60,729 nt of DNA from Brevinema andersonii (GTDB lineage Bacteria > Spirochaetota > Brevinematia > Brevinematales > Brevinemataceae), in NCBI RefSeq assembly GCF_900112165.1, contig NZ_FOKY01000005.1, positions 1 to 60,729 on the forward strand. Reading direction: 5' to 3'. Both the position numbers and the translations under genes were made by a program. Under the pieces are notes generated by a model that worked only from the letters and a program-made list of their open reading frames with translations, made no database searches and was not told where the DNA came from. Below, piece by piece: positions 2,458 through 31,770 of this stretch (positions within the stretch are counted from its first letter, which is position 1; every line of letters starts with the position of its first letter).

Positions 2458-4902
2458 CTAAAATAATCCCTGAATTGAGAAAACGAATTCCCAAGATTTC
2501 CAAAAATCACGAGAGCCTGCAAGTTGGAAACCACCTTGATTTTTATCCCATTCTACAGGACGCGCAACATACAAACGAACCGGTAAAATAGGAATATTCA
2601 ATGCCAAACCTAAACCAAAACTCATAATATAAGGTGATTGATTCCAAGTAAAATCTGTATAATTAGCAAAAATAGCACCATAATCCCAAAATACTACAGC
2701 ACCGATAAAATTCCAGATAGGAATACGGGCTTCTATGGAAAAGTAGGATGTTGCTTCACCGCGTGCAACATAATTGAGCCAGCCACGCATTCTATATACG
2801 CCATCGAAACTCATTAAATTGGCATCTCTATAAGAAAATTTCTGCCCGATCTGAGGGAACAAAAAGCCCATATCATAATGGAATGCAAATGTCATCTGCC
2901 AAAATGGACGCCAATAGTAGTCGGCACTAAAGGTCATGTTAATAAAGTCGATATCTCCTCCCAAAGCTCCGCCGGAAAATGAGAAAAATAATGCTGTATT
3001 TAAGCCACGTGTCGGCCAAAGACCACCATCTGTATTGTTAAAACGTAGTGTTGTATAGATACTATTCTGAATTGTCCACCCAAAAGCAAGTGAATCAATC
3101 AAGTTGTTATCAATTTTCCACTGACCATCATATTTCAAAGGATTAGAGAAATTAGCATTATAATCTTTGAAGATATTCAGCTCATAACCTAAATTAGCGT
3201 TCCAGTAGACTCCAAATTGGATCCCAAAAGCCAATCCAGCACGGAAACTAAGCCTAGTGTATTGTTTTGAAGAACTGAAACTTACTAAAGTTTTATCAGG
3301 ATTTTTCTGCCAATTCAAGTCTGTACCGTCAATTATACCGTTTCTATCTTCATCGGTAGGCATATCAATGTAAATATTATTAAACACCCCTAATATCACA
3401 CTCAATGATACAGGAGAATTCAAAAGAGCTGGCTCTGTAAACGTGACCTCTCCTAACTGGCGATATTGACCATATTCAGCACGCAATGCTAATTGAAATC
3501 CACGCCCTCCAAGATTTTTTTCAGACAATTTGATACCACCACTGAAACCACTGACGGTTCCGTAGCCAAGAAGAAACTCTATCATTCCAGTTTGAGCCTC
3601 TGTAACAACAAAATCAATGTCCACCAAACCGTCCACCGTGCCTGGCGATGGCTGAATACGAACATCTGAGAAAAATTGAGTCTGCATTAATCGGTTATAA
3701 CTTTGTTCCAACTTACGATTAACATAAAGTTCACCTTCTTTCACCTGTATATAACGTTTGATAACACCAGGTAATGTTTTAGTGTTGCCACGTACATTAA
3801 TATTCTGGATATGTGCACGTGATCCTTCATAGATAACAAAAATCGTATCAACAACATTATCAGCTCTTTTTTCTTGGACTGCCGAAATATTCGCAAAAAG
3901 ATACCCACGGTCAGAATATTTTTTATAGATATCAGAGCGGATTTTTTCGACTTTTTCCTGGTCGTAAATATCTCCGTGTTTGAGAGCAACAAAATCTCTG
4001 AACTCATTGATCCCAAAAATATTATGCCCTTCAAATGCAAAAGTCCCTACTTTATACTGAGAACCTTCGGAAATATGAATACGCAAAACAATACCTCGTG
4101 TAACCTTAGAAACCTGACCTTGTTTGTTGGTAGAAACAATATCTTCAATATCCCAAGAAAAATTTGTAATCTGAGCATCTAGATAACCAAATTTTTTGTA
4201 ATAGCCGATAATCCGATCGCGGTCAGCAAGAAATTCATCTTCTTTAATGACACCATTCCGAAAAATCCACATTTTTTTCTTAGTTTGCATGACACCTTCA
4301 AGTTTTTTGGGTTTGATTTTGTTCGCACCAACAAAAATAATATCGCGTACTACTATTTTCAGACCTTCTGAAATCTCGAAAATAAGATCAAACTGACCAG
4401 GCAATTGCTTAATAGGCACTAGACGATAACTTACTTGGGCTTCAAGAAAACCTTCTTTTCGATAATATTCTTTAATACGGTATACAGCTGCTCGAGCTTT
4501 TGCTTCACGGAAGGCCGTACCTTCTTTGAAATCAATTTCCTTTTTGAGCTTGTCTGCTTTAAGCCCAGATACCCCTTGATATATTATCCGATCTACAAGT
4601 GCTTCCTCTACGACGGTAAACGTAACAATAACTCCGGTAGGTGTATTAGACAAGCTGGCTTGAACCGACTGAAATCGCTGCATTGCGTTAAGATTTTTAA
4701 TAGCAAAGTTAATATCGCGTTGAGTAAATGTATCACCAGGACGCAGCTCAACAACAGATAACGCATCGTTCTGCGAAGTAACTTTTAACCCTTGAAAACG
4801 AATTTCCGAGATAATATTATTAAGACTTTGAGAATAAACCGCCGTTGTAAAAAAGGTTAGAATTAATAGCAATTTCTTTTTTAATTTCATAATAGACAAC
4901 AT
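2458..4902 (-). CDS. bamA: Outer membrane protein assembly factor BamA (Omp85)
   Basis: BamA is the central subunit of the machinery that folds beta-barrel proteins into the outer membrane. The 814-residue protein has a signal peptide (about residues 1-25, ending VYSQ), a series of POTRA domains (about 28-430) and an Omp85 barrel (about 440-814). The last residue is Phe (IQGLF), the usual outer-membrane beta signal. The start at 4902 has GGAG 4 nt upstream; a second ATG at 4890 is possible. It is the last gene of an operon after the YhaN-like, TPR and tamB genes, 107 nt downstream of tamB. Its stop faces the flaB terminator. The pairing with tamB supports a role in barrel-protein assembly. 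Confidence 0.95.
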   Translation of the reverse strand: MLSIMKLKKKLLLILTFFTTAVYSQSLNNIISEIRFQGLKVTSQNDALSVVELRPGDTFTQRDINFAIKNLNAMQRFQSVQASLSNTPTGVIVTFTVVEEALVDRIIYQGVSGLKADKLKKEIDFKEGTAFREAKARAAVYRIKEYYRKEGFLEAQVSYRLVPIKQLPGQFDLIFEISEGLKIVVRDIIFVGANKIKPKKLEGVMQTKKKMWIFRNGVIKEDEFLADRDRIIGYYKKFGYLDAQITNFSWDIEDIVSTNKQGQVSKVTRGIVLRIHISEGSQYKVGTFAFEGHNIFGINEFRDFVALKHGDIYDQEKVEKIRSDIYKKYSDRGYLFANISAVQEKRADNVVDTIFVIYEGSRAHIQNINVRGNTKTLPGVIKRYIQVKEGELYVNRKLEQSYNRLMQTQFFSDVRIQPSPGTVDGLVDIDFVVTEAQTGMIEFLLGYGTVSGFSGGIKLSEKNLGGRGFQLALRAEYGQYRQLGEVTFTEPALLNSPVSLSVILGVFNNIYIDMPTDEDRNGIIDGTDLNWQKNPDKTLVSFSSSKQYTRLSFRAGLAFGIQFGVYWNANLGYELNIFKDYNANFSNPLKYDGQWKIDNNLIDSLAFGWTIQNSIYTTLRFNNTDGGLWPTRGLNTALFFSFSGGALGGDIDFINMTFSADYYWRPFWQMTFAFHYDMGFLFPQIGQKFSYRDANLMSFDGVYRMRGWLNYVARGEATSYFSIEARIPIWNFIGAVVFWDYGAIFANYTDFTWNQSPYIMSFGLGLALNIPILPVRLYVARPVEWDKNQGGFQLAGSRDFWKSWEFVFSIQGLF

Positions 4903-5009
4903 AATACTCCGTAATCTGTTTATTTCGAAAAAACAACTTCGAGTATAAATTATTAGAGTAATTTAACAGAATATAGTATACAAAATCTGCAGAGAAATAG
5001 CAATCTTTC

Positions 5010-8000
5010 TTAAAATCTGCGTCGGAAAGAACCTTCAAAAATAGCTTCGGTTTCAGTACCTTCTTGCTTAGCATTAACAGCAGCGTTAACACCAAGCCCG
5101 AACTGACCGACATTTCGGACGGGATAATCCCAACCTAAGCCGATTTTGTGGATTTGATTGAGAATCTGACTAGTATCAAGGCTAGAATTTTCAGGAGATT
5201 CAAAACGAAGATTATACTTCAGCTGGAGCCCAGAAATCGATGGTAAATATTGTCCCAATTCTAGTTCCGAGCCGTGGAATACGCTAATTCCTGTAGCAGG
5301 TTGCCCCAACGCAAACGAACGTGTTAAATTTCCAAGCACATCGGTTTTCACTTGCAAATTGTCGATAGGCACAACCTGTCGAATCCGCCGCGAAAGAGGA
5401 GATGTAAAGAACGCATTTTCCGCAACCCCCACTCCGCTAGCAACAATATTACCAGAATCACTAATACGCACACTAGCCGCATCACGAGCTTGAACACTCC
5501 CTAATCCTAAAAGCCCAAATAATTCCGAACGTGAACGCGACGGTACCGAACTAATATTAGCTAATTCCAAATTAGGAAGTTTACCATCAAAATCGACATA
5601 AATATCGATCTGATTGTTTTGAGCATCACGTTCGGAAGACATAGCACTTACGCGCAGCATAGGAAATACATCACCTGGCTCTCCGGAAAATGCAAGATTT
5701 CCTTTATCGATTTTTAATTCTTTATTGAGGTAGTTGATCGTACCGCGGATAATATCCACATCACCATGCACGGCTATTGTATTATCGCTGACATTTCCTT
5801 GAATTTTTATCAATTTATCAGGCTCGAAGTATAAGTCAAACAGCTGATTGAGAAATCGCGTACCTTTTCCGAGAGTAAAGTCAATATCGATATTCAAGCT
5901 TTCCATAAGCTCAACGAACGGAGAAAATTGTATGCCACTTGACGATCGTTCAGAAAGTATATCTCCCAACTCCAATCGCATATTGACATTTTCTGTGGTA
6001 AGCCGTGAAGATAATAATAACTCATTAGCAGGACCGCTGATATTGATATGATCAATAATAGTACGCCCGTTAAACGTAATAAATGGAACATTAAGTTTCC
6101 AGACAAGCATACTTAAGTTGTTTTCTACCAAGGGATCAGCAAAGAATTTCAAGTCGATACTTTCGATAGCTTTATCACGGATATCAAAAAAACCATCCAA
6201 CACAAATTGTCCCGAATTCCGAGAAATAATGGGAATCCTCGGAAACAATACTTTATTGCTTTCAATCAGAATTTTATGATTATTTGGAATCAGTACCCGA
6301 TTCCGCAGTGAACGAAGTTGCATTTCTATGTTGGAGAACGACAAATTCCCGTCAAAAATAGGATTGTCCGATGAGCCACGGGTCAAAATATGAAACCCAG
6401 CATTTCCTTTCAAACGCCGAATATCGCCACTCAGCTTTAATTTATCAAGCTGCACGGCACCGTCTAAAACAGCAGTAATAGCATTATTGGCTTCACGGCC
6501 TTCGGATTGAAGTTTTATGGCATCTGTCAGAAAGCTAGCATTCCAAAAAATCTGCCCAGCATCAAGCCCCAACACCCCAGAAAGCCCATATTTATGGTGG
6601 TCGGAAATAAAAATATATTGATTATTGTGTTCCAACACTTTCCCAGAAACCTCAATAGGAGCGCGCGATAAAAAGTACAAATTAGGTATCTTATAAACTA
6701 GTATTGAATTAGCATAATTTTTTTGATAAGCTATTTTAAGTTCCGTTTTAATGGCATTTCCGACCGCCAGAGCTCCGACAATATCTAAATTAAACCCTTG
6801 AGTTTCCTTGCGGAAAGAAATATCACTGTCAAGATTAAGCACTGCATGCCGTAAACGAAGATTTGTTACAGAAAGAAAATTTTCTTTTTTCGAGAAATTC
6901 TGCACAACAAACTGAAATGCTTCCCTTTCTTGAGTGCTTTCGAGATTGACAGAACCACAAAAATCAGGATTATTCCATACACCACCTATATTTAATTTGA
7001 GATCAGCCCATATCAATTCAGTATTGCGATTTTGAAGTCCAGACAATGGTTGAAGTACAGGAATTGTCAAAAGATCTTCAATAAGAAATTTGCGTACGTC
7101 AAAGCGGGCTTTGAAAGTATATGAACCAGTCATAAATTGCAAACTACCACCCCGTTCAAAACGAACAGCAGCCCCTAAGCCGCCATTTTCGGCAACCTTA
7201 AAATAACCATGCCCCTTAAGGATTTCGGAATCCAAACCTAAACTAAAACGGCTGAAATTCAAAATTCCATTTGTTCCCTGTGCATCAAAATCCAAAACAA
7301 CAACACGTCCGCCCAATTCCCAACTTCCCGAATGAAATGCAAATTTTTCCCATCCTTGCGGTGTGAAATTAAACTCCAAAATTCCTGAAGCATTGCCATT
7401 AACACCCAATTTACGCAGAGGATATTTTTTGAAATCCAAAACCAATGTAGTCAAATTTCCTTCTGTATCCGATATAATCGGAACTTGTCCGTCCGCCAAA
7501 CCAGAAACAGAAGTCTTATATTTATTCACCAGCACATCAACACTGATAGGAATTTTGCCTTTCATACCGAACTCGCCTGCAGCTGCTATATCTATGTATG
7601 TATTGGTACGATCACTTCTAATGTTAACAGCACCATTAAGCAGGAGGTTTTGCGAAACAAAATACAAACGCGGAACATCTATCTTATTATCTTTAAACGT
7701 AAGCGACACATCGATTTGCCTTTCTCCATCTAAAAAACCTGTCATTTGCCCGCGGACTTCGGGATTTGAATAACGATCTTTTTTGTCGATGAAAACTTCA
7801 CCGCGATACATTGATTTATCCAGCCCAAAAATAGCTAATTTTGTATTTTCCTTCAAAAAATCTCCATTTACGGAATAGGCTTTGAGATAGACATACACAT
7901 ACTCATCAAGATCAACATGAACATCCACATCATTCGAAAAACGAAGCGGTTCTATTTTCAGTCTTGAGCCATCAATATGAAAACGTGCTCTGGTATTGCC

Positions 8001-9305
8001 GATCAGACCGTTGTTCATGCGGACATTGTATGCTGTAATATCCAGAACATTCTGGCCAGGTAAAGCGACTGTTTTTGCATCAGCAGAAAACACCAGCCCC
8101 GGAAGAATAAAACGCACATTATCCAACTGCAAAGTCCCTGTAGGAAGAGGAAGCAATCCACGTCTATTTTCAAGTAACAAATCGCCGAGAATGCCGCCAA
8201 AAAAATGAGTATTAAGATTAACTAAAGCATGATATTTCTCGCTGCCCAAAGGTAGAATTTCCAAATCCAGACCGTAATTAGGATGCTGCTCCGACCAAAA
8301 TTTCACAGCTGTATACCAGTTATGGTTTTTTTTAACAGTTAACCCAAAATTCCAAATACCCGGCTTAAATGCATAATCGAGCATTTCATATTCTTCATAA
8401 TCAGCATAATTGATCCGGAAACTGCGGTTGATCGCCAGCTCAAATTGATCCTGATTCCCCTCCAAAACAAAACCCAAAGAATTGCTGCTTTGGGAAATAG
8501 TATCAAAAAGCACATCTCTACCATTGATCGTGAACGCAAGCCCTATTGTATCAGTGATGATAGGAATTCCACCAGCGTTCAAGCTATGCAGAGCTACATC
8601 CAAACCGCCTTGAGGAGCATTAAAGTTACTCAATTGACCCTTTGCTTTGAAAGCAAGCGTCGCCAAATGTACTTGATTGCTCCATACCGAACGTACACCC
8701 AAATCAGCTTTCCAATTGACTGCATTGCGTTCGAAAAGAATATTGACTTCATTGGCATCCACAAAATGCCGGAATTGCTGCAACATCCTCACTGTCATAC
8801 CTAACTGCTTCACATGCAAGTGGAAGTACATTTTTTTGATATCGAAATTTATTTTTTTATAGAAAGAGTTGGCAAAATTTTCTTTAGTTTTGTTTTTATT
8901 GTAACGCTGCTGAAGATGTTCGAGATATTCGTCAAAAGCTTTGTTATGAAATTGAAAATCAAGCGTATCAACCACAAAACTCGCAACAAACTGATCAAAA
9001 TCGCCCGTGAATAAACTCCATAACCGGTAACGAAAATAAATTCCTTTAACATTCAGAGAAATTTCATCATTAACAATAATACGAATATGCCCAATGCTAG
9101 CAAAAATAAACGGAAAATTGGAAATATGACCCAAAGAAACATATTCTGCATCAAGAGCTTGCTTGACAGCGCGTTCAATCTGAGGTCGAAATACCGTGAA
9201 TGCAATATTTAACGCACCTAACACAAAAATATAGAACATAAACAACCGAAAAATCCAGAGAAACCAAGTTTTTTTTGTGGCGTTTTTCAGAACATTCCTC
9301 CACAC
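5010..9305 (-). CDS. tamB: TamB-family translocation/assembly protein (DUF490)
   Basis: This is a large inner-membrane-anchored periplasmic protein of the TamB/AsmA-like family, thought to bridge the two membranes for lipid transport or for assembly of outer-membrane proteins. It is about 1431 residues long, with one amino-terminal membrane helix (about 15-38), a long beta-rich body and the conserved carboxy-terminal domain including a LFGLLGLGSV segment near residue 1240. No TamA-specific gene is visible, and BamA follows directly. The start is uncertain. The GTG at 9305 has no good Shine-Dalgarno, whereas GGAGG lies 6 nt before an in-frame CTG at 9290. It lies 18 nt after the TPR gene. Confidence 0.88.
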   Translation of the reverse strand: MWRNVLKNATKKTWFLWIFRLFMFYIFVLGALNIAFTVFRPQIERAVKQALDAEYVSLGHISNFPFIFASIGHIRIIVNDEISLNVKGIYFRYRLWSLFTGDFDQFVASFVVDTLDFQFHNKAFDEYLEHLQQRYNKNKTKENFANSFYKKINFDIKKMYFHLHVKQLGMTVRMLQQFRHFVDANEVNILFERNAVNWKADLGVRSVWSNQVHLATLAFKAKGQLSNFNAPQGGLDVALHSLNAGGIPIITDTIGLAFTINGRDVLFDTISQSSNSLGFVLEGNQDQFELAINRSFRINYADYEEYEMLDYAFKPGIWNFGLTVKKNHNWYTAVKFWSEQHPNYGLDLEILPLGSEKYHALVNLNTHFFGGILGDLLLENRRGLLPLPTGTLQLDNVRFILPGLVFSADAKTVALPGQNVLDITAYNVRMNNGLIGNTRARFHIDGSRLKIEPLRFSNDVDVHVDLDEYVYVYLKAYSVNGDFLKENTKLAIFGLDKSMYRGEVFIDKKDRYSNPEVRGQMTGFLDGERQIDVSLTFKDNKIDVPRLYFVSQNLLLNGAVNIRSDRTNTYIDIAAAGEFGMKGKIPISVDVLVNKYKTSVSGLADGQVPIISDTEGNLTTLVLDFKKYPLRKLGVNGNASGILEFNFTPQGWEKFAFHSGSWELGGRVVVLDFDAQGTNGILNFSRFSLGLDSEILKGHGYFKVAENGGLGAAVRFERGGSLQFMTGSYTFKARFDVRKFLIEDLLTIPVLQPLSGLQNRNTELIWADLKLNIGGVWNNPDFCGSVNLESTQEREAFQFVVQNFSKKENFLSVTNLRLRHAVLNLDSDISFRKETQGFNLDIVGALAVGNAIKTELKIAYQKNYANSILVYKIPNLYFLSRAPIEVSGKVLEHNNQYIFISDHHKYGLSGVLGLDAGQIFWNASFLTDAIKLQSEGREANNAITAVLDGAVQLDKLKLSGDIRRLKGNAGFHILTRGSSDNPIFDGNLSFSNIEMQLRSLRNRVLIPNNHKILIESNKVLFPRIPIISRNSGQFVLDGFFDIRDKAIESIDLKFFADPLVENNLSMLVWKLNVPFITFNGRTIIDHINISGPANELLLSSRLTTENVNMRLELGDILSERSSSGIQFSPFVELMESLNIDIDFTLGKGTRFLNQLFDLYFEPDKLIKIQGNVSDNTIAVHGDVDIIRGTINYLNKELKIDKGNLAFSGEPGDVFPMLRVSAMSSERDAQNNQIDIYVDFDGKLPNLELANISSVPSRSRSELFGLLGLGSVQARDAASVRISDSGNIVASGVGVAENAFFTSPLSRRIRQVVPIDNLQVKTDVLGNLTRSFALGQPATGISVFHGSELELGQYLPSISGLQLKYNLRFESPENSSLDTSQILNQIHKIGLGWDYPVRNVGQFGLGVNAAVNAKQEGTETEAIFEGSFRRRF

Positions 9306-9323
9306 TCGATGAACGCATATCTG

Positions 9324-11363
9324 CTACCTGCGTTTTACAGCAGCCTCTAACTCCAATAGAGCCCTATTATTCCGATTAAGTTTCATTCCAATCCGGAGAA
9401 ATTGTTTCGCTTTTTTGATATTGCCTTGATCAAGGTAAAACTTGGCAAGATGAGCGTAAATTTCTGTTAATTCTTTTGTTTGAAAAGGCATCATATCAAG
9501 CTCGTTTTCAACAAGCGTAAAAATACCTTGGGCTTCGCCGGCATCTCCTTTCATAAAATGCACCCATGCCCACGTATCAAGATAAGCAATATTATCCTTT
9601 TCAGCTACTGTATTTTCGATCAGAGACAAGGCTTTATCAAGATCGGCATCGGTTTGCGGGACGAATTCTTTTTGAAGTGCATACGTATATGCAAGAAAAT
9701 TTTGTGTATCAAGGCTGTCAGGATGTGTCTCCAAAACAGATTCCAAATATTGTCGCGCTTTTGCAAGATATTCACGGCAATTTCCTTGTGATATATGTAT
9801 TGCATCAACATACAAGCCCGCCGTAATATTAGCAAAACGGATAGGATCGCTTTCAAGCTGCCGCAGCACAGCAATATATTGCTGTGCCTGCATGTCGTTA
9901 TTGGAGTCCTCAGCAAGCAAAAGTTGGGCATAGAGAATACTCATAATTTTTATTTGTTGTTTTTCTTCATCGCTCAGCTGAGCAATTTGATCTTTTTTTA
10001 GAGTAAAAATTTCTTGCGGATAAAGTTTATACTGCGTCAACAGACGTCGGGCTTCAGAGAAATTTCTTCTGCCAAACTCAAGTTGAACCACAGCATACAA
10101 CAACCCCTCCCGAAAATCATCATACTTCAATCCCTGTTCGTAGTACTTAAGAGCCGATGTTTGATTATTTAGGGAATCTTCGATGTCACCCAGCATATAC
10201 AGCAGTACACCATTGGTATAGGGAAAATCATCAAGCTTAAGGTAGTGTTTTGCCAGTCCTTTTTTGCCGACACAATAGGCATCCGTACCTGCTTTAAGAG
10301 CTACGGATTTCATAGCGTCCCGCATCTGAAAACGATGTAACAGTTCGTAGTGAAGGCTGTCCAACATCCAGGGAAAATCACTGCTAACACTAAAATCTGA
10401 ATTGTTAGTGATACTTTGGAGTGCATGCTGGGTTTTACCGCGTCGGAAGTCACGAAGCAGATATGCATAAGGTGAAAGATCCGTATTTTGCGAAAGATAA
10501 AGATCCAAAGTTTTTACGGAATTTTTATCTCCCGACATCAGTAACGATCCCAAATAGATATCCAATAAATCCTGTTGCATCAGCTCGACTGGGATTTTTT
10601 CAAAAAACGTCAATGCTTTCGAAAAATTAAGAAAATATGCGTGCAAAATACCGATTTTCGCGTTTAGAAGCATATCGTAAGGAATTTCAATAAATTCTTG
10701 GCTTAAATTATATGCTAAAGTAAAATAACGTAATGCTTTTTGCTTCGAAGAGGAACTGTTCTGTGCCGAATAAATGTCGCCAAGATGGATCAAACTCTGA
10801 TAGATATAAGTTTCATTTCGTGAAGGCCCATTGATAAGTGACAATTTTTCGAAATAAGGAATTGCTTCTTCATAATTTGCAGCAGAAAGCGCAAGATATC
10901 CCAAAATATAATTAGCCATTGTGTGATTGGGATTGTATTTCAATGTATTCTCGGCCAACTTCATACCCAATTCAGCATCCCTCACTTGCCAAGCGATAGA
11001 AAGGCCAGTATCTGTGATCTGTGCGGAGTCGGGATATTTCTCGGCCAAAATCAAAATATTATCGCGGATTCCTTTGTAAGAATTAAGGACTACTTCCTGA
11101 TTTTCAGGATTTGAATTATAACTAAGAATCTGGATGTAAGCCTGATAAATCTGCATCAAAAATAATGCTAAATATTCGTTATCGGCGCCTTCCAAAACGA
11201 GCGTTTCTAACAAAAACCTGGCTTGAGCAATATCATTATCGTAATAATAATTGACAGCTTGGGAATAGATATCTTCTATCTCTTGCTGAGAAAGCACCGA
11301 TTTCTCCTGAGAATGCAAAATACCCGCCCATAAAAGCAGCAGCGCGGATAAAAAATTTTTCAT
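9324..11363 (-). CDS. Secreted TPR-repeat protein
   Basis: The product is about 679 residues with an amino-terminal signal peptide (MKNFLSALLLLWAGILHSQ) and TPR-like helical repeats along its length (for example MANYILGYLALSAANYEEAI and AHLAKFYLDQGNIKKAKQFL). TPR proteins act as scaffolds; no enzyme motif is visible. The start at 11363 is chosen because AAGGAG lies 5 nt upstream and the signal peptide follows, whereas the frame extends further upstream into the previous gene. It sits between the YhaN-like ATPase and tamB-bamA, so a BamD-like or other envelope-assembly role is possible but not shown. I do not recognise the specific family. Confidence 0.8.
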   Translation of the reverse strand: MKNFLSALLLLWAGILHSQEKSVLSQQEIEDIYSQAVNYYYDNDIAQARFLLETLVLEGADNEYLALFLMQIYQAYIQILSYNSNPENQEVVLNSYKGIRDNILILAEKYPDSAQITDTGLSIAWQVRDAELGMKLAENTLKYNPNHTMANYILGYLALSAANYEEAIPYFEKLSLINGPSRNETYIYQSLIHLGDIYSAQNSSSSKQKALRYFTLAYNLSQEFIEIPYDMLLNAKIGILHAYFLNFSKALTFFEKIPVELMQQDLLDIYLGSLLMSGDKNSVKTLDLYLSQNTDLSPYAYLLRDFRRGKTQHALQSITNNSDFSVSSDFPWMLDSLHYELLHRFQMRDAMKSVALKAGTDAYCVGKKGLAKHYLKLDDFPYTNGVLLYMLGDIEDSLNNQTSALKYYEQGLKYDDFREGLLYAVVQLEFGRRNFSEARRLLTQYKLYPQEIFTLKKDQIAQLSDEEKQQIKIMSILYAQLLLAEDSNNDMQAQQYIAVLRQLESDPIRFANITAGLYVDAIHISQGNCREYLAKARQYLESVLETHPDSLDTQNFLAYTYALQKEFVPQTDADLDKALSLIENTVAEKDNIAYLDTWAWVHFMKGDAGEAQGIFTLVENELDMMPFQTKELTEIYAHLAKFYLDQGNIKKAKQFLRIGMKLNRNNRALLELEAAVKRR

Positions 11364-11403
11364 ACATGCTCCTTGCACGGTTTTTTTCATTATAACATAG
11401 CCT

Positions 11404-13509
11404 TTAATAATAGTCACGATTTAAGTTAGTAGCTTCCAAATATGGCCCGAACAAGCTTTCAAAATAGTCATATAGGAGTTTATTATCCTGCATGGTGCAG
11501 ACAACTTGCCAGCCCTCTTGAACAAAGGCTTTCAATACATCGATAAGATTTTTACTTCGTAGCGCGTCGAAATAAGAAAATGGATCATCCAACACAATAA
11601 TTCCATCCTCTCTGCCAAGAAGTTCTTTTGCTAGAGACCACTTCAAAATCATCCAAAACTGCATACTTGCACCTGCACCTAAGGTTTCGAGAGAAAATGT
11701 ATTTCCGTGCCCATCCACAGCAAAAATTCGAATATGCTTATCTTCCAATGCTGCAACAAAGGTTTTATATTTTCCGCCAAATGTATATTGAACAATATAT
11801 TCAAAAAATGGATTTTGTAGGGTTTTTTCAAGAAGAGTTTCCGTTTTTTTACTCAAATCACCACATAAATCAACCAATATTTCAGCATAATGCCGATCTT
11901 TCGCGACCCGATCAACAACAGGATCTATTTTCTCCCGTAGATCAAAAATATCTTGGATCTCGCGGATATGCCATTCCGAAACTTCTGGATAGAAACGTTT
12001 GACAGCATCCGGATATCCGCTATCTTTGAGCTCATCAAGAATCGGTTTCAACGTACCGAAAATATTATTCTTCATTTTTTCATAATCTTTGGCTTGCTGA
12101 GATTTTTGATGAACAATATCATTTTTTTGGCGGCGAACTCGGTAAAGATCCATATAATCAAAATCAACATTATTGTTGTTTAGATAATCGCGGATATTGT
12201 TAATTTCAGCCAGAACATCACGCGGTTGATCGAAACCAAATACCTTAAACACCGTATCACGCACATTTTCCAATGTCCGGACAATTCTTGTTCTCTGATT
12301 CTCACGCGTCTCAAATAATTGCTTGCCTTTACTGCGGCGGACTTCTGCCATAATATCTCGGTATTCATCACGCTGCTCGAAGTATTTCTGCTCTAGTTTT
12401 TCGTATTCACACTGCTTTTTACCAAGCAGCTTTTCAAACTTGCGGAGGCGTGTGTCATCGGCCAAGAACTCTATACCCCAAGCATTCATCATCTCAAAAT
12501 AAAATGTTTTAAGAACAAAAAACAATCCCGATATAAAAACAACAAGTGCACTAATTTTCATAGGTGTCATTCCTATATGACGAATAGACTTGAACGCCAG
12601 ATACAAGCCCGCGACCACAAGAATAACACCAATCATTAAATTTATAAGGTTCCGCGCTAAACTATAACCATATTTGCTCAACTGTTCATGTTCGAAATGT
12701 TGTTCTTTGTTTTTGAGTCGATTTATTTCGCGTTTAAGTGCTTTTAATGCATCTTCAGTCTTCTCAAGCCGAGCACTCTTTTGAATCATAAGCTCACCTA
12801 AAGATTTATCTGAAAACGCATCATCCTGGTGCTGCTCCAACTCTTTTTTTTGATTCATCAAATCAATATATTTTTTCCCGAGATCCAGCTTGTCCATTAA
12901 ATAATAAACATCTTCCTGAGAACGCATATAATTTTCTTGTTCATCTACGGCGCCCAAAGAAGCATTCAGTTGATTGATTTGATTTTCCTTGTGATAAAGT
13001 TCCTGAGTTTCGGGAAGAATGTCTTCGAGCGCATCCTTAAACCTCAGCAGCTTGTCATGAAATGCGTTCAACCAAGCGTGCTTACCAGAACGACCTACGC
13101 CCATTGCTTTGAGAAAATTATGTTGCAACTGTCCAGAAATGTCGTCTTGACCATAAATCAAAGCTCTAACCTCGTTGTCCCAAAACTTAAGAGCTTGCTC
13201 AGGATTGTGCTGTTTTGGGGACAATTCCCCTTCCCTTACAAAAAGAAGATTCTTCAAACGCCTCGGATCATAAATATTATCAAAACGGCTAACTTGCATT
13301 TGCACCAAACTATCCGTTCCGATGTTATCCGACCATGTTTCTCCATTTGGCAGAGGATGAGGTTTTTCGAACAAGCCATGCCCCAACCAGTTAATGATTG
13401 TCGTTTTGCCTCTGTCGTTGTCGCCGATGATTAGAGTCACCGGCTTGAAATAAATATCGACATTCCGCAACGGTCCGCTTTCCCGAATCAATAAACGGTT
13501 AATTCTCAC
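11404..13509 (-). CDS. YhaN/SbcC-like AAA ATPase with a membrane hairpin
   Basis: This 701-residue protein is an ABC/SMC-type ATPase. The Walker A motif GDNDRGKTT is at residues 29-37, long coiled coils follow, and the carboxy-terminal Walker B reads GIIVLDDPFSYFD, in the manner of RecF/SbcC/YhaN proteins. Two hydrophobic helices (about 289-306 and 317-336) interrupt the coiled coil and would tether it to the membrane. The start is GTG at 13509 with GAGG upstream. It leads the operon with the TPR protein, tamB and bamA, which is odd company for a DNA-repair-type ATPase. A sigma-28-like promoter precedes it. Its function is unknown; YhaN-like is the nearest family I can name. Confidence 0.8.
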   Translation of the reverse strand: MRINRLLIRESGPLRNVDIYFKPVTLIIGDNDRGKTTIINWLGHGLFEKPHPLPNGETWSDNIGTDSLVQMQVSRFDNIYDPRRLKNLLFVREGELSPKQHNPEQALKFWDNEVRALIYGQDDISGQLQHNFLKAMGVGRSGKHAWLNAFHDKLLRFKDALEDILPETQELYHKENQINQLNASLGAVDEQENYMRSQEDVYYLMDKLDLGKKYIDLMNQKKELEQHQDDAFSDKSLGELMIQKSARLEKTEDALKALKREINRLKNKEQHFEHEQLSKYGYSLARNLINLMIGVILVVAGLYLAFKSIRHIGMTPMKISALVVFISGLFFVLKTFYFEMMNAWGIEFLADDTRLRKFEKLLGKKQCEYEKLEQKYFEQRDEYRDIMAEVRRSKGKQLFETRENQRTRIVRTLENVRDTVFKVFGFDQPRDVLAEINNIRDYLNNNNVDFDYMDLYRVRRQKNDIVHQKSQQAKDYEKMKNNIFGTLKPILDELKDSGYPDAVKRFYPEVSEWHIREIQDIFDLREKIDPVVDRVAKDRHYAEILVDLCGDLSKKTETLLEKTLQNPFFEYIVQYTFGGKYKTFVAALEDKHIRIFAVDGHGNTFSLETLGAGASMQFWMILKWSLAKELLGREDGIIVLDDPFSYFDALRSKNLIDVLKAFVQEGWQVVCTMQDNKLLYDYFESLFGPYLEATNLNRDYY

Positions 13510-13546
13510 AATAACGCCTCATGATCTAAAATTATTCCCATCGAAA

Positions 13547-13577
13547 TTATCGGCATTATTCAGATAAAGTTTTGGTT
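13547..13577 (-). promoter_or_regulatory. Sigma-28-like promoter before the YhaN-like/TPR/tamB/bamA operon
   Basis: Read on the minus strand: AAAACTTT, 11 nt, GCCGATAA. The -10 element matches the FliA consensus 8/8 and the -35 element 6/8, with exact spacing. The -10 lies about 40 nt before the GTG start at 13509. The element is intergenic and does not overlap the divergent glgP promoter. Confidence 0.65.
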
Positions 13578-13601: not shown

Positions 13602-13630
13602 TTGACAAATGGCTCATTAAAGATTATACT
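13602..13630 (+). promoter_or_regulatory. Sigma-70 promoter of glgP
   Basis: TTGACA (13602-13607), 17 nt, TATACT (13625-13630). This is a near-perfect housekeeping promoter about 40 nt before the glgP start. Confidence 0.85.
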
Positions 13631-13672
13631 AAACTAAGATAGTCCCCAGTTCGGGTGAAGAAGGAGAAAAAT

Positions 13673-16129
13673 ATGCACATTCCTTTCGACAAAAACGTAT
13701 TCAAAGAAGCCGTGCTCACTAACATAAAAGAACGTACTGGCAAAACACCTGAAGAAGCCACATCTGAAGATATTTATCAAGCTGTCAGTGAAGCCATAAT
13801 GGCCTACATAGCGGTTGATTGGACCAATACAAAAAATAAAATTGCTGCTTCCGAAGCAAAACAAGCCTTTTATTTTTCAGCAGAATTTTTAATGGGACGG
13901 GCATTTGATAATAATATTATTAATTTTGGGTTGCAGCATGGTATTATTGAGATGCTAGAAGATTTGCATTTGGATTTGAACCTTATCGAAGATCAGGAAC
14001 CCGATGCAGCTTTAGGCAACGGAGGTTTAGGTCGTCTTGCGGCGTGTTTTCTGGATTCGCTGGCAACAATGGGTTATGCAGGTCATGGTTACGGCATTCG
14101 CTATAAATACGGCATGTTCGAGCAGAAAATTCAAAACGGCTATCAAGTAGAAGCTCCCGACAACTGGCTGAAAAAAGGTGATCCTTGGGAAGTACGGCGC
14201 GATTCGGACGCCGTTTACGTAAAATTTGGTGGCCGTGTCGACAATGTAATGGAAGATTCAGGACGGATAGGCTTCCGTCGCAATAACGCCGAAACCATTA
14301 TTGCTGTGCCGTACGATATGCCTATTATCGGTTATAAAAACGGATGCATCAATACACTACGGTTGTGGCAAGCACAAGCTCCGGAACCATTTGATTTAAC
14401 TGCTTTTAACAATGGCGAATTCGAACAAGCTGTTGTTGCTCAAAATAATGCTGAAAATATTTCACGGGTTTTGTACCCTAATGACTATTCTTATCAAGGC
14501 AAAGAATTACGTTTACGCCAGCAGTATTTTTTCACTTCGGCATCGCTGCAGGATATTATTACGAAATTTGTCCATAAATACGGAGACCATGGATGGGAAA
14601 AGTTCCCAGAAAAAGTCGCGATTCAGCTGAACGACACACATCCAGTAGTAGCAATTCCGGAATTAATGCGTTTATTCATGGATTGGAAAGGATTGGACTG
14701 GGATTTTGCATGGCAGCTCACAACTCAAACTTTTGCCTATACGAATCATACGGTGCTTGCGGAAGCACTCGAAGTTTGGGATTTGAACTTGTTCCGTGGC
14801 TTATTGCCTCGGATTTATCAGATTGTCGAAGAAATCAACCGCCGGTTTATGGACGAACTGCGCACAAAATATCCGAACGACCATCACAGACAAAGCCGCA
14901 TGAGCATTCTCGACCATGGGCAGATAAAAATGGCACACTTGGCGATTGTCGGGTCACACAGCGTTAACGGTGTTGCGAAACTGCACACGCAAATTCTAGA
15001 ACGAGAAGTTCTGAAAGACTGGTACGAATTGTATCCTGAAAAATTCCAAAACAAAACTAACGGCATTACGCCACGGCGCTGGCTTGTGAAAGCAAACCCT
15101 AAATTAACAACACTAATCGACAGTAAGATTGGAGAGTCATGGAAAACTAATCTTGACGAACTACAAAAACTTAAACAATTCATTGATGATCAATCCTTTT
15201 TGGAAGAGCTGATGCGTGTCAAACAGGAAAACAAAATTACGTTAACAAATTACATTAAATATTGGACTGATATTGAATTAAATCCACATGCTATTTTTGA
15301 CGTTCAGGTCAAACGTATGCATGAATACAAACGCCAGCTTCTAAATGCTCTGCAAATTATTGCAATGTATCTGCAACTACGGGAAAATCCGGCAATGGAT
15401 ATTTATCCGCGGGCTTTTATTTTCGGAGGAAAGGCAGCATCAGGTTACTGGCGAGCGAAAACAATTATCAAGCTCATCAACAACATCGCAAACGTTATTA
15501 ATCAGGACAACCGCATCCAAGGCAAATTGAAAGTTGTATTTGTACCGAACTACAGAGTATCGGTTGCGGAAAAGATTTTCCCTGGCGCTGATGTGAGTGA
15601 ACAAATTTCGACCGCTGGTAAAGAAGCTTCCGGCACAGGAAATATGAAGTTTATGGCCAACGGCGCAATTACAATAGGCACTTTAGATGGGGCAAATGTT
15701 GAAATTCTGGAGGAAGTAGGAGCTGAAAATTGTGTTATTTTCGGGGCAACTACAGAAGAAATTCACGAATTAAACATCAACCAAAATTATCAACCGTTGG
15801 ATTATTATCATTCTGACCCTCTGCTGAAAGACACACTTGACAGTTTGATCAATGGTACATTTACAATCGGTGAAGATGAAAATTTATTCCGTAATTTATA
15901 TGATTCGTTATTGTATGGAGTAGACGGTAATCCAGCAGATACCTATTATTTATTGAAAGATTTTGACGCTTACCGCAAAGCCCAAGGAACTATAGATCTC
16001 TTATACCGCGACCGGAATCTTTGGGCAAAAATGATGCTAATCAACATTGCCAGCTGCGGAAAATTTTCTTCTGATCGGACCATTCAGGAATATGCTGATG
16101 AAATCTGGCATATCAAACCATTAACTTAA
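13673..16129 (+). CDS. glgP: Glycogen/maltodextrin phosphorylase
   Basis: It cleaves alpha-1,4-glucan ends with phosphate to release glucose-1-phosphate, feeding stored or imported glucan into glycolysis. The 818-residue length is that of the large phosphorylase family. Visible signatures are EDQEPDAALGNGGLGRLAAC (active-site region) and, near the carboxy terminus, EASGTGNMKFMANGAITIGT, which contains the pyridoxal-phosphate lysine. The start at 13673 has AAGGAG 6 nt upstream; the longer frame from GTG 13655 lacks this. It has its own strong sigma-70 promoter and stands alone, converging on the small lipoprotein gene with a 19-nt gap. No glgA, glgB or glgC is in the window. Confidence 0.97.
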   Translation: MHIPFDKNVFKEAVLTNIKERTGKTPEEATSEDIYQAVSEAIMAYIAVDWTNTKNKIAASEAKQAFYFSAEFLMGRAFDNNIINFGLQHGIIEMLEDLHLDLNLIEDQEPDAALGNGGLGRLAACFLDSLATMGYAGHGYGIRYKYGMFEQKIQNGYQVEAPDNWLKKGDPWEVRRDSDAVYVKFGGRVDNVMEDSGRIGFRRNNAETIIAVPYDMPIIGYKNGCINTLRLWQAQAPEPFDLTAFNNGEFEQAVVAQNNAENISRVLYPNDYSYQGKELRLRQQYFFTSASLQDIITKFVHKYGDHGWEKFPEKVAIQLNDTHPVVAIPELMRLFMDWKGLDWDFAWQLTTQTFAYTNHTVLAEALEVWDLNLFRGLLPRIYQIVEEINRRFMDELRTKYPNDHHRQSRMSILDHGQIKMAHLAIVGSHSVNGVAKLHTQILEREVLKDWYELYPEKFQNKTNGITPRRWLVKANPKLTTLIDSKIGESWKTNLDELQKLKQFIDDQSFLEELMRVKQENKITLTNYIKYWTDIELNPHAIFDVQVKRMHEYKRQLLNALQIIAMYLQLRENPAMDIYPRAFIFGGKAASGYWRAKTIIKLINNIANVINQDNRIQGKLKVVFVPNYRVSVAEKIFPGADVSEQISTAGKEASGTGNMKFMANGAITIGTLDGANVEILEEVGAENCVIFGATTEEIHELNINQNYQPLDYYHSDPLLKDTLDSLINGTFTIGEDENLFRNLYDSLLYGVDGNPADTYYLLKDFDAYRKAQGTIDLLYRDRNLWAKMMLINIASCGKFSSDRTIQEYADEIWHIKPLT

Positions 16130-17877: not shown

Positions 17878-18518
17878 TGTATTCGTTCCTCAAAAATTGC
17901 CCTCTTAAAGGGCGCATCTTTGCTCCAAGATTCAAAATATTGCAATCCGAATATATGCGGAGCATAGGAGTAAAGTTCTTTCCAAATGAGAATCATGAGT
18001 TCACGGATCTCCCACTGCGCCGATTTTGATACACGCATATCGATCACATGCAGCCATTGCCGAAAATTAGTCGTCATAACCAATGTTGTTTCCACAGCGT
18101 TCGGCAGCACAAAACGCGCATCCTCTTTTTTAACGCCCAAAGCAACCAAATGCGCATAATCTTCATTAATCCTCTGCATTAATTTTTGATATAAGTCGAA
18201 AGCTTCGTGATTGTTGGCAATTGAAGGAGGAACAACATACGGAAATTCAGCTTCGTTGACATAGCGCTGCGAACGTTGGCTGAAAGAACTCATCCGATGC
18301 CGTACCAACTGATGCGACGCTGCTCGACTGATTCCCTCTATTAAAAAACTTGCCAAACCATGCTCGAAAACCGACAAATGCCCCGCTTTAAGTAAAGTAG
18401 GCAGCATTTTTATATAAGATTCATCTGTCTGTTTGTCATGCGAATCATAGCAAACTCGCGCACTAGTCTCGCAGGTAAATTCAGCATTCGGGGAAATAAA
18501 CAGCAGTTTTATATTCAT
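17874..18518 (-). CDS. thyX: Flavin-dependent thymidylate synthase ThyX
   Basis: It makes dTMP from dUMP using FAD, NADPH and methylenetetrahydrofolate, replacing ThyA. The 214-residue protein contains the ThyX motif RHRMSSFSQRS (RHR followed by seven residues and Ser) around residues 74-84, and a TNFRQWLHVIDMR segment in the carboxy-terminal half. GGGAG lies 6 nt before the ATG. It is the first gene of the thyX-rarA unit, driven by a minus-strand promoter at 18542-18570, and is divergent from the membrane-protein gene at 18630. Confidence 0.97.
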   Translation of the reverse strand: MNIKLLFISPNAEFTCETSARVCYDSHDKQTDESYIKMLPTLLKAGHLSVFEHGLASFLIEGISRAASHQLVRHRMSSFSQRSQRYVNEAEFPYVVPPSIANNHEAFDLYQKLMQRINEDYAHLVALGVKKEDARFVLPNAVETTLVMTTNFRQWLHVIDMRVSKSAQWEIRELMILIWKELYSYAPHIFGLQYFESWSKDAPFKRAIFEERIQ

Positions 18519-22003: not shown

Positions 22004-22918
22004 ATGAATTACAAAGGAGCTGCTAAATCTTCAGAACAAAAATACTATGCACCGAATAGTATGTCAACATATTTAAAGGAGATAGATGCTATTCCACTGC
22101 TAAGCCGTGAAGAAGAACAAGAATTAACCAGTAGTTTCGGCACTTGCTGCCAGGTTTACTTGAGAGAAAATCCTGCTCATCAATTATGCAGCACCTGTAC
22201 AGCTATCAAAGAAAAACTGATTATTTCCAATTTGCGTTTTGTTGTATCCGTAGCAAAGAAATATCAAGGCAACAACTTATCGCTTGCGGACTTAATCAAC
22301 GAAGGGAATCTCGGATTACTGATGGCTGTTGACAAATTCGACCACACATTAGGATATCACTTCATTTCATATGCTGTGTGGTGGATTAAGCAGTCGATAA
22401 TGAAAGCAATTTCGGAAAAGTCGCGTATGATTCGTCTACCGATGAACAGAACTAACGAATTATTCCGGATCGCCAAATTTATCGATAAATACTCCAAAGA
22501 ATTCGGAACCAAACCTTGTGAAGCATTGATAGAAAAAGAACTAGGCATCAATAAAACCGAAATTAAAAGAATTTTGGATTTAGCCAGTGGTCATACAGCT
22601 TTAGAAGGATTAGTAACAGATGACGGGGAGTTTGATTCATTCCATATTAATATCCCGGAATTTCAGAGTCCAGAGCACAATATTATCCAATTATCTCTTT
22701 CAAACAATATCCACAGTTTACTGGATGTCCTATCTGAACGAGAACGATTTATTTTAATGAAGCGTTTTGGTTTGGATGGAGGCGATTGTTTATCGTTATC
22801 CAAAATCGGAGAATTATTGGGACTCACCAAAGAACGTGTGCGTCAATTAGAAAAGCATGCGCTTGAGCAAATAAAAACAATTGCTCAAGAAAGCCAAATG
22901 ATACTGTATTTCAATTAG
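22004..22918 (+). CDS. Group-2 sigma-70-family sigma factor with a four-cysteine insert
   Basis: This 304-residue sigma factor lacks region 1.1. It has region 1.2 (MSTYLKEIDAIPLLSREEEQEL), region 2 (NLRFVVSVAKKYQGNNLSLADLINEG, then YAVWWIKQSI), region 3, and region 4.2 (SKIGELLGLTKERVRQLEKHAL). Between regions 1.2 and 2.1 it carries about 15 extra residues with Cys48, Cys49, Cys62 and Cys65 plus His59, a possible zinc or redox site. It is RpoS/RpoD-like rather than flagellar. The ATG at 22004 has AAGGA 6 nt upstream. The frame stays open upstream to an AAGGAGG-preceded ATC at 21944. It is monocistronic, with a strong terminator following. Confidence 0.9.
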   Translation: MNYKGAAKSSEQKYYAPNSMSTYLKEIDAIPLLSREEEQELTSSFGTCCQVYLRENPAHQLCSTCTAIKEKLIISNLRFVVSVAKKYQGNNLSLADLINEGNLGLLMAVDKFDHTLGYHFISYAVWWIKQSIMKAISEKSRMIRLPMNRTNELFRIAKFIDKYSKEFGTKPCEALIEKELGINKTEIKRILDLASGHTALEGLVTDDGEFDSFHINIPEFQSPEHNIIQLSLSNNIHSLLDVLSERERFILMKRFGLDGGDCLSLSKIGELLGLTKERVRQLEKHALEQIKTIAQESQMILYFN

Positions 22919-30398: not shown

Positions 30399-30665
30399 GT
30401 GATTAGTCAAGAGATAAACATACTCAATCGTTACGGAATTCATGCTCGTCCATCATCGATGATAGCAGATCTTGCAGAAAATTTTCAAAGTACTATTATT
30501 TTTGAAAAAGATGGTAAAACAGCTAATGCACGAAACATTATGAACTTAATTCTATTGTCTATAGAACCCAATTCTAAAATCACGGTACATATTAACGGAC
30601 CTGATGAAACAAGTGCCTTAAAAGCTCTTATTGATCTTATCGAGGTACGTCGTTTTGATGAATAA
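30399..30665 (+). CDS. ptsH: Phosphocarrier protein HPr
   Basis: This small phosphocarrier is charged on histidine by enzyme I and passes phosphate to sugar enzymes II or to regulators. The 88-residue protein has GIHARPSSMI with His15 in the standard position. At position 46, where Firmicutes-type HPr has the regulatory Ser, it has Asn (ARNIMNL), so phosphorylation by HPr kinase is not expected. The start is GTG at 30399 with GAGG 5 nt upstream. No enzyme I or enzyme II gene is near. It ends exactly where the convergent hpf gene ends. Confidence 0.92.
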   Translation: MISQEINILNRYGIHARPSSMIADLAENFQSTIIFEKDGKTANARNIMNLILLSIEPNSKITVHINGPDETSALKALIDLIEVRRFDE

Positions 30666-30972: not shown

Positions 30973-31770
30973 TCACTTAGTTTCTTTTTGGATTTTATCC
31001 AAACGTCCTCTCAATCGCATGATCGCCTTCGTATGTAGTTGCGATACTCGAGATTCTGTTACAGCTAAGATACTACCAATTTCTTTTAAGGTCAATTCTT
31101 CATAATAATAGAGAATTAATACTTGTTTTTCGCGATCTGGCAGTTCTGTAATAGCATGGGCAATTATTTTTTTCAATTCTGTGCGTTCCGCCAACGCATT
31201 GGGATTTGAAACACTAACACTTTCCAAAGTTTCTTCCATAGACATAGGAGAATTGTCATTACCGTCATTCATAAGCCAATTTTCATCCATGGACACTAGT
31301 GCATTAGTACCAACCCTCAAAAGTTGCTGATGAAATTCTTCTACTGAAATTCCCATCGCGGCAGCAATTTCATCATCTTTTGCAGATCGACCTAACTTCA
31401 ACTCTAACTGTGAAATCGTACGTTCGATTTCTTTAGCTTTTTGACGTACCGAGCGTGGAAGCCAATCAATATTTCTCAACTCATCAAAAATAGCACCACG
31501 AATCCTTGTAACAGCATATGTTTTAAATTTAATATCACGATTGAGATCAAATTTATCAATAGCATCTATTAAACCAATCACTCCAAAGCTAACAAGATCT
31601 TGAAAATCAACCGAAGATGGAATATTCACCATAACACGTCCAGCAACATATTTAACTAGCGGAGCATATTTTTCAATAAAATAATTTCGGATTGTCCGGT
31701 CTTTCGTGCTACTATATTGTTCCCAAAGCTGTTCTTCCGTAAATCCGGCTAAATGTTCATATCCTTTCAC
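30973..31770 (-). CDS. fliA: Flagellar sigma-28 factor FliA/WhiG
   Basis: It directs RNA polymerase to late flagellar promoters. The 265-residue protein has region 2 (YAPLVKYVAGRVMVNIPSSV, DFQDLVSFGVIGLIDAIDKFD and KFKTYAVTRIRGAIFDELR), region 3, and region 4 (YYYEELTLKEIGSILAVTESRVSQLH), typical of FliA/WhiG. The start is GTG at 31770 with only a weak ribosome site. Sigma-28-like sites elsewhere in the window (flaB, fliK, 16472, 13547) are its likely targets. No anti-sigma flgM was found. It is co-transcribed with hpf. Confidence 0.97.
   Translation of the reverse strand: MKGYEHLAGFTEEQLWEQYSSTKDRTIRNYFIEKYAPLVKYVAGRVMVNIPSSVDFQDLVSFGVIGLIDAIDKFDLNRDIKFKTYAVTRIRGAIFDELRNIDWLPRSVRQKAKEIERTISQLELKLGRSAKDDEIAAAMGISVEEFHQQLLRVGTNALVSMDENWLMNDGNDNSPMSMEETLESVSVSNPNALAERTELKKIIAHAITELPDREKQVLILYYYEELTLKEIGSILAVTESRVSQLHTKAIMRLRGRLDKIQKETK

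Follow-up and report, generated by a model that had tools for sequence, protein, structure and literature searches.

A likely new sigma-28 regulon member, a Rad50-like ATPase gene upstream of tamB and bamA in Brevinema andersonii

The DNA studied is a window of 60,729 nt, the complete contig NZ_FOKY01000005.1 of Brevinema andersonii, whose draft genome comprises 1.5 Mb in 39 contigs. Genes for a Rad50/SMC-like ATPase, a TPR protein, TamB and BamA follow one another in this order, divergent from a gene for a carbohydrate phosphorylase (Table 1). The order had been proposed in an earlier note on this DNA and was borne out by the open reading frames, the domain matches and the family comparison. 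Comparisons within Brevinemataceae were carried out with three genomes (G001, G002 and G003; four with that of B. andersonii), of which G001 and G003 are close to each other. When more relatives were sought in genome contigs, only the same members of the family were recovered. The block in which the phosphorylase gene diverges from ATPase-TPR-TamB-BamA and flaB converges on bamA is intact in G001 and G002, and the arrangement in G003, split over two contigs, agrees with it. Each of the four genomes has one gene for FliA.

Table 1. Genes and promoter-type elements of the window discussed in the text.
Feature	Position	Strand	Remark
flaB sigma-28 promoter, CTAAACTT-12-ACCGAAAA	1460..1487	+	reference site, same window
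Gene 4, BamA	2458..4902	-	TIGR03303, 418 bits
Sigma-70-type promoter before bamA (predicted), TTGCTA-17-TATACT	4975..5003	-	counterparts at 17 bp in G001, G002, G003
Gene 3, TamB	5010..9305	-	PF04357
Gene 2, TPR protein	9324..11417	-	probable real start ATG 11363
Sigma-70-type promoter before TPR gene (predicted), GTGACT-17-TATAAT, extended TG	11389..11417	-	own genome only
Gene 1, Rad50/SMC-like ATPase (AAA_15/AAA_23)	11404..13509	-	likely sigma-28 target
Shine-Dalgarno GAGG	13517..13520	-	7 nt 5' of GTG 13509
Sigma-28-type promoter (predicted), AAAACTTT-11-GCCGATAA	13547..13573	-	-35 13573..13566, -10 13554..13547
Phosphorylase sigma-70-type promoter (predicted), TTGACA-17-TATACT	13602..13630	+
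Carbohydrate phosphorylase (glycogen phosphorylase)	13655..16129	+	divergent; neighbour retained across family
FliA/WhiG-type sigma-28 gene	30973..31770	-	cognate sigma factor

The intergenic region before the ATPase gene carries the sigma-28-type element that the earlier note had reported, with a -10 matching the FliA consensus at 8/8 positions, CGA core included. The -35 agrees with TAAAGTTT at 6/8 positions and the spacing is exactly 11 bp. Against the site, its -35 is mismatched at T-32 and at the position-5 G, which are important at the aer promoter of E. coli; in the -10 of FliA promoters mutation of the CGA core abolishes activity (PMC2859248). The distance from the end of the -10 to the start codon of the ATPase gene is 37 nt. 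This GTG start is supported by the Shine-Dalgarno sequence and by the ATGAGGC-GTGAGA leader/start arrangement, which is kept in the three relatives and is thus common to all four genomes.

Counts of plain consensus matches were obtained for the whole 1.5 Mb genome. Nine sites have at most two mismatches, and with up to three mismatches 60 sites are found, as against 46 for the reversed pattern used as control. The consensus behind these counts is that of E. coli; the family's own late flagellar motif is a better yardstick. Raw consensus counting was rejected as a test of the site, being too weak to decide, and a bare match is unremarkable. A matrix was built from 18 late-flagellar sites of the family (fliD, flaB, mcp orthologue groups from four genomes, fliN/fliY and flgN), with the candidate excluded. 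The sites give the Brevinemataceae motif [CT]TAA N17 CCGA(A/T)A, with spacing as in E. coli.

With this matrix the ATPase site scores 16.6 and ranks second of the 219 upstream regions sampled in its own genome, a sample that covers about 17% of the genome, includes the window and is enriched for motility loci. Only flaB, itself a member of the training set, scores higher. Dinucleotide shuffles of the intergenic region attain 16.6 in 0.075% of cases (P 0.00075), and a score of 16 was not reached by any upstream region in a set of 2190 shuffled ones. Sites of comparable score also occur inside genes, some 7 of them scoring at least 14 in 227 kb of coding sequence. When the upstream regions of the ATPase genes of B. 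andersonii and G001 were shuffled jointly, P was 0.0001 or less.

The fairest test was considered to be the scoring of 53 orthologous pairs of genes from B. andersonii and G001 by the upstream regions of both members. Ten pairs stand sharply apart at the top (sum at least 19.9, the next 14.6) and consist of flaB (two), fliY, fliD, flaA, three mcp genes, the ATPase gene and a spoIID-like gene. With TCGA-type mcp sites in the matrix the ATPase pair ranks third; without them it ranks fifth.

The ATPases of the relatives are only 36-38% identical to that of B. andersonii, and CGATA is present at the upstream position in four of four genomes. The -10 reads GTCGATAA in G001, GTCGATAC in G003 and GACGATAA in G002, with CGATAATT retained in three genomes, and the -35 is degenerate in all three relatives. 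Taken singly, the relatives give shuffle P values of 0.002-0.02 (G001), about 0.04-0.05 (G003) and about 0.11 (G002). Conservation of GCCGATAA in close relatives, to which the earlier note had looked, is thus seen for the core CGATA in three of three; the first C of CCGA is replaced by T or A in each of them. Loss of this C is probably tolerated because the same change occurs at mcp sites of the relatives and at FliA-bound sites of E. coli, the CGA core being decisive. Two mcp orthologue groups have CCGATAA in B. andersonii as against TCGATAA, TCGATAC or GTCGATAT in the relatives, and GTCGATA-type -10s also precede mcp genes there, an argument that is partly circular as the mcp sites were themselves assigned by position and resemblance. 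The FliA-bound sites of E. coli include GACGATAA (fliC) and others with GTCGATAA (PMC4183435). Distant relatives of the ATPase in other families of the order (20-22% identity) lie in unrelated neighbourhoods, and a convincing sigma-28 site was not found before them.

The pair of octamers could still be a FliA-like site of the kind expected in 1.5 Mb, as the nine genome-wide matches would allow, with the ATPase gene transcribed from a sigma-70 promoter; a TATAAT does lie farther upstream on the same strand. Such a chance likeness appears improbable in view of the rank obtained with the family-trained matrix, the joint conservation with G001 and the CGATA shared by all four genomes. Moreover, a competing sigma-70 site of any strength is absent from the upstream region in B. 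andersonii (best P 0.3). Sigma-28 control of the ATPase gene is, on these grounds, likely.

The promoters of the genes downstream were analysed in the same genomes. Between TamB and bamA, in a gap that measured about 90-110 bp in the genomes for which its length was taken, TTGnnn-17-TATA(A/C)T lies at the same place in four of four genomes, the counterparts being TTGATT-17-TATACT in G001, TTGAAA-17-TATAAT in G002 and TTGATA-17-TATACT in G003. The matches are singly modest (shuffle P 0.01-0.12, with a different site slightly better in G001). Recurrence of the same element with the same 17-bp spacing in every genome makes a convincing case for a predicted sigma-70-type bamA promoter. Another candidate of this type sits just 5' of the likely start of the TPR gene, from which the protein begins with the signal-peptide-like MKNFLSALLLL. 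Elsewhere in the order, in the other families sampled, either bamA follows its neighbour almost without a gap or a sigma-70 site of the TTGACC type precedes it, and no sigma-28 site of comparable strength was seen before bamA. No paper tying bamA to FliA was found in the literature.

The earlier note had taken the sigma-28 site to drive the whole operon, so that outer-membrane assembly would track flagellar expression. The same-strand genes with small gaps between them, the lack of a terminator-like site between the ATPase and TPR genes and a sigma-28 site that looks real and is conserved would all suit a main promoter at this place. The reading is nonetheless unlikely, since a sigma-70-type promoter is predicted in the TamB-bamA gap of all four genomes and another before the TPR gene here, and since in G005, G008 and G012, three genomes sampled from a single different family within the order, bamA follows TTGACC-17-TACAAT and not a sigma-28 site. 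By the sequence evidence, bamA does not appear to depend on a distal sigma-28 promoter for want of its own. Sigma-28 input into the operon therefore stands for the ATPase gene, on the score and position of the site, the cognate FliA and the conservation, and is not upheld for TamB and BamA.

Alternatively, the conserved block, CGATAATTAAGATAAG in relatives, might be no -10 but an operator, or a binding site for some other protein, that serves the divergent phosphorylase gene as well. This would fit the retention of the divergent gene pair and the sister-genus conservation extending about 10 bases beyond the -10, but is very improbable, as the element of B. andersonii has a matching -35 at the correct spacing, flaB too shows conservation downstream of its -10, and TCGATAC is also found before mcp genes with no phosphorylase gene beside them.

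These results suggest a genuine sigma-28 promoter that would place the ATPase gene in the late flagellar (class 3) regulon of Brevinemataceae, with bamA transcribed mainly from its own sigma-70 promoter, and we consider this combination probable. FliA, late in flagellar assembly, would bring the polymerase to the site and lead to expression of the ATPase gene. The transcript would begin about 6-7 nt past the -10, leaving a leader of about 30 nt to the GTG. Since a terminator-like site is absent between the ATPase and TPR genes, some read-through into the TPR gene, tamB and bamA is possible; sigma-28 may thus add read-through but does not appear to be what drives bamA. As bamA has a predicted ordinary promoter of its own, the flagellar switch probably does not control the assembly of the outer membrane.

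The ATPase has a Walker A-like GDNDRGKT, an LDDPF and a long coiled coil, flanked by N- and C-terminal halves that match Pfam AAA_15/AAA_23, the C-terminal half also matching that of Rad50 (E 3e-5). In mid-protein, a long region predicted to be helical includes two hydrophobic segments, at about residues 288-306 and 319-337. The protein presumably resembles the YhaN-type membrane-anchored ATPases. An AlphaFold model of the protein had a pLDDT of 64, too low to be of use in searching for similar folds. A reading of the protein as part of a defence system was rejected, the matches being just weak and to shared ATPase domains. A role in the envelope or in chromosome tethering during motile growth is speculation.

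Other sigma-28-type sites were noted in the course of the analysis. The gene for a SpoIID/LytB-like protein (L168, 18392-19513, +) has TCAAGTTC-13-ACCGATAA at 18338-18366, and its G001 counterpart (L175, 6221-7330) has TTTAGTTT-13-GTCGATAT. Strong sites precede the gene for a 274-aa protein without a family match (L167, 12678-13502, -; CTAAATTT-12-TCCGACAA at 13542-13569, 39 nt upstream) and that for a LamG/fibronectin-type-III protein (L166, 9942-11540, +; at 9894-9920, 21 nt upstream). Within the window, a moderate site, CTTATAAT-12-ACCGATAA, lies 32 nt upstream of the HPr gene (30399-30665, +), and a weaker one 110 nt upstream of the gene for a second sigma-70-family factor (22004-22918, +), for which RpoD-related group 2 models are closest. 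In mcp groups C and D (L139/L141, L151/L152/L153/L150) several presumptive sigma-28 -10s of the sister genus read TCGATA as against CCGATA here, a drift at the level of the genus.

A published flagellar regulon for Brevinemataceae was not found in the literature, and a sigma-28 promoter motif of the family is now defined from sequence. The membrane Rad50-like ATPase and the SpoIID-like protein are two non-flagellar, envelope-type gene products whose genes group with that motif and with the flagellar regulon. One can imagine a flagellum-timed pulse of read-through over TPR-TamB-BamA that supplements a constitutive bamA promoter, boosting envelope assembly alongside the periplasmic flagella, with the ATPase and spoIID-like genes as envelope-remodelling members of the regulon; we regard this extended scheme as tentative and on balance doubtful. 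Were read-through into tamB-bamA to be demonstrated, the timing of flagellar genes would be tied in an uncommon way to outer-membrane assembly, and this in a bacterium that carries its flagella inside the envelope.

Among known systems, the ATPase gene's domain relatives are the YhaN-/Rad50-type ABC ATPases, with which the protein shares the Walker A-like N terminus and the Rad50-matching C-terminal half; its coiled coil is likewise broken by two hydrophobic segments. Unlike in those systems, an SbcD/YhaO-like nuclease was not seen beside the ATPase gene in the Brevinemataceae genomes. In Borrelia burgdorferi, whose BAM-TAM genes include those for BamA (BB0795) and TamB (BB0794) (PMC13382580), tamB and bamA are consecutive by gene number, as they are consecutive here in another spirochete. 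B. burgdorferi is without sigma-28 according to PMC11607428; B. andersonii, in contrast, has this factor, and has TPR and ATPase genes 5' of tamB. The mapped flaB2 promoter of Treponema denticola has a -35 TTAA and a -10 CCGATAA (PMC9481697). The ATPase site resembles that promoter and those of E. coli fliC and tar (PMC4183435) in its CCGATAA-type -10, its TAA-type -35, its spacing and the presence of a cognate FliA. It differs from these class 3 promoters in being predicted from sequence and in the gene served, which codes for a membrane Rad50/SMC-like ATPase and is not among the genes known for flagella or chemotaxis.
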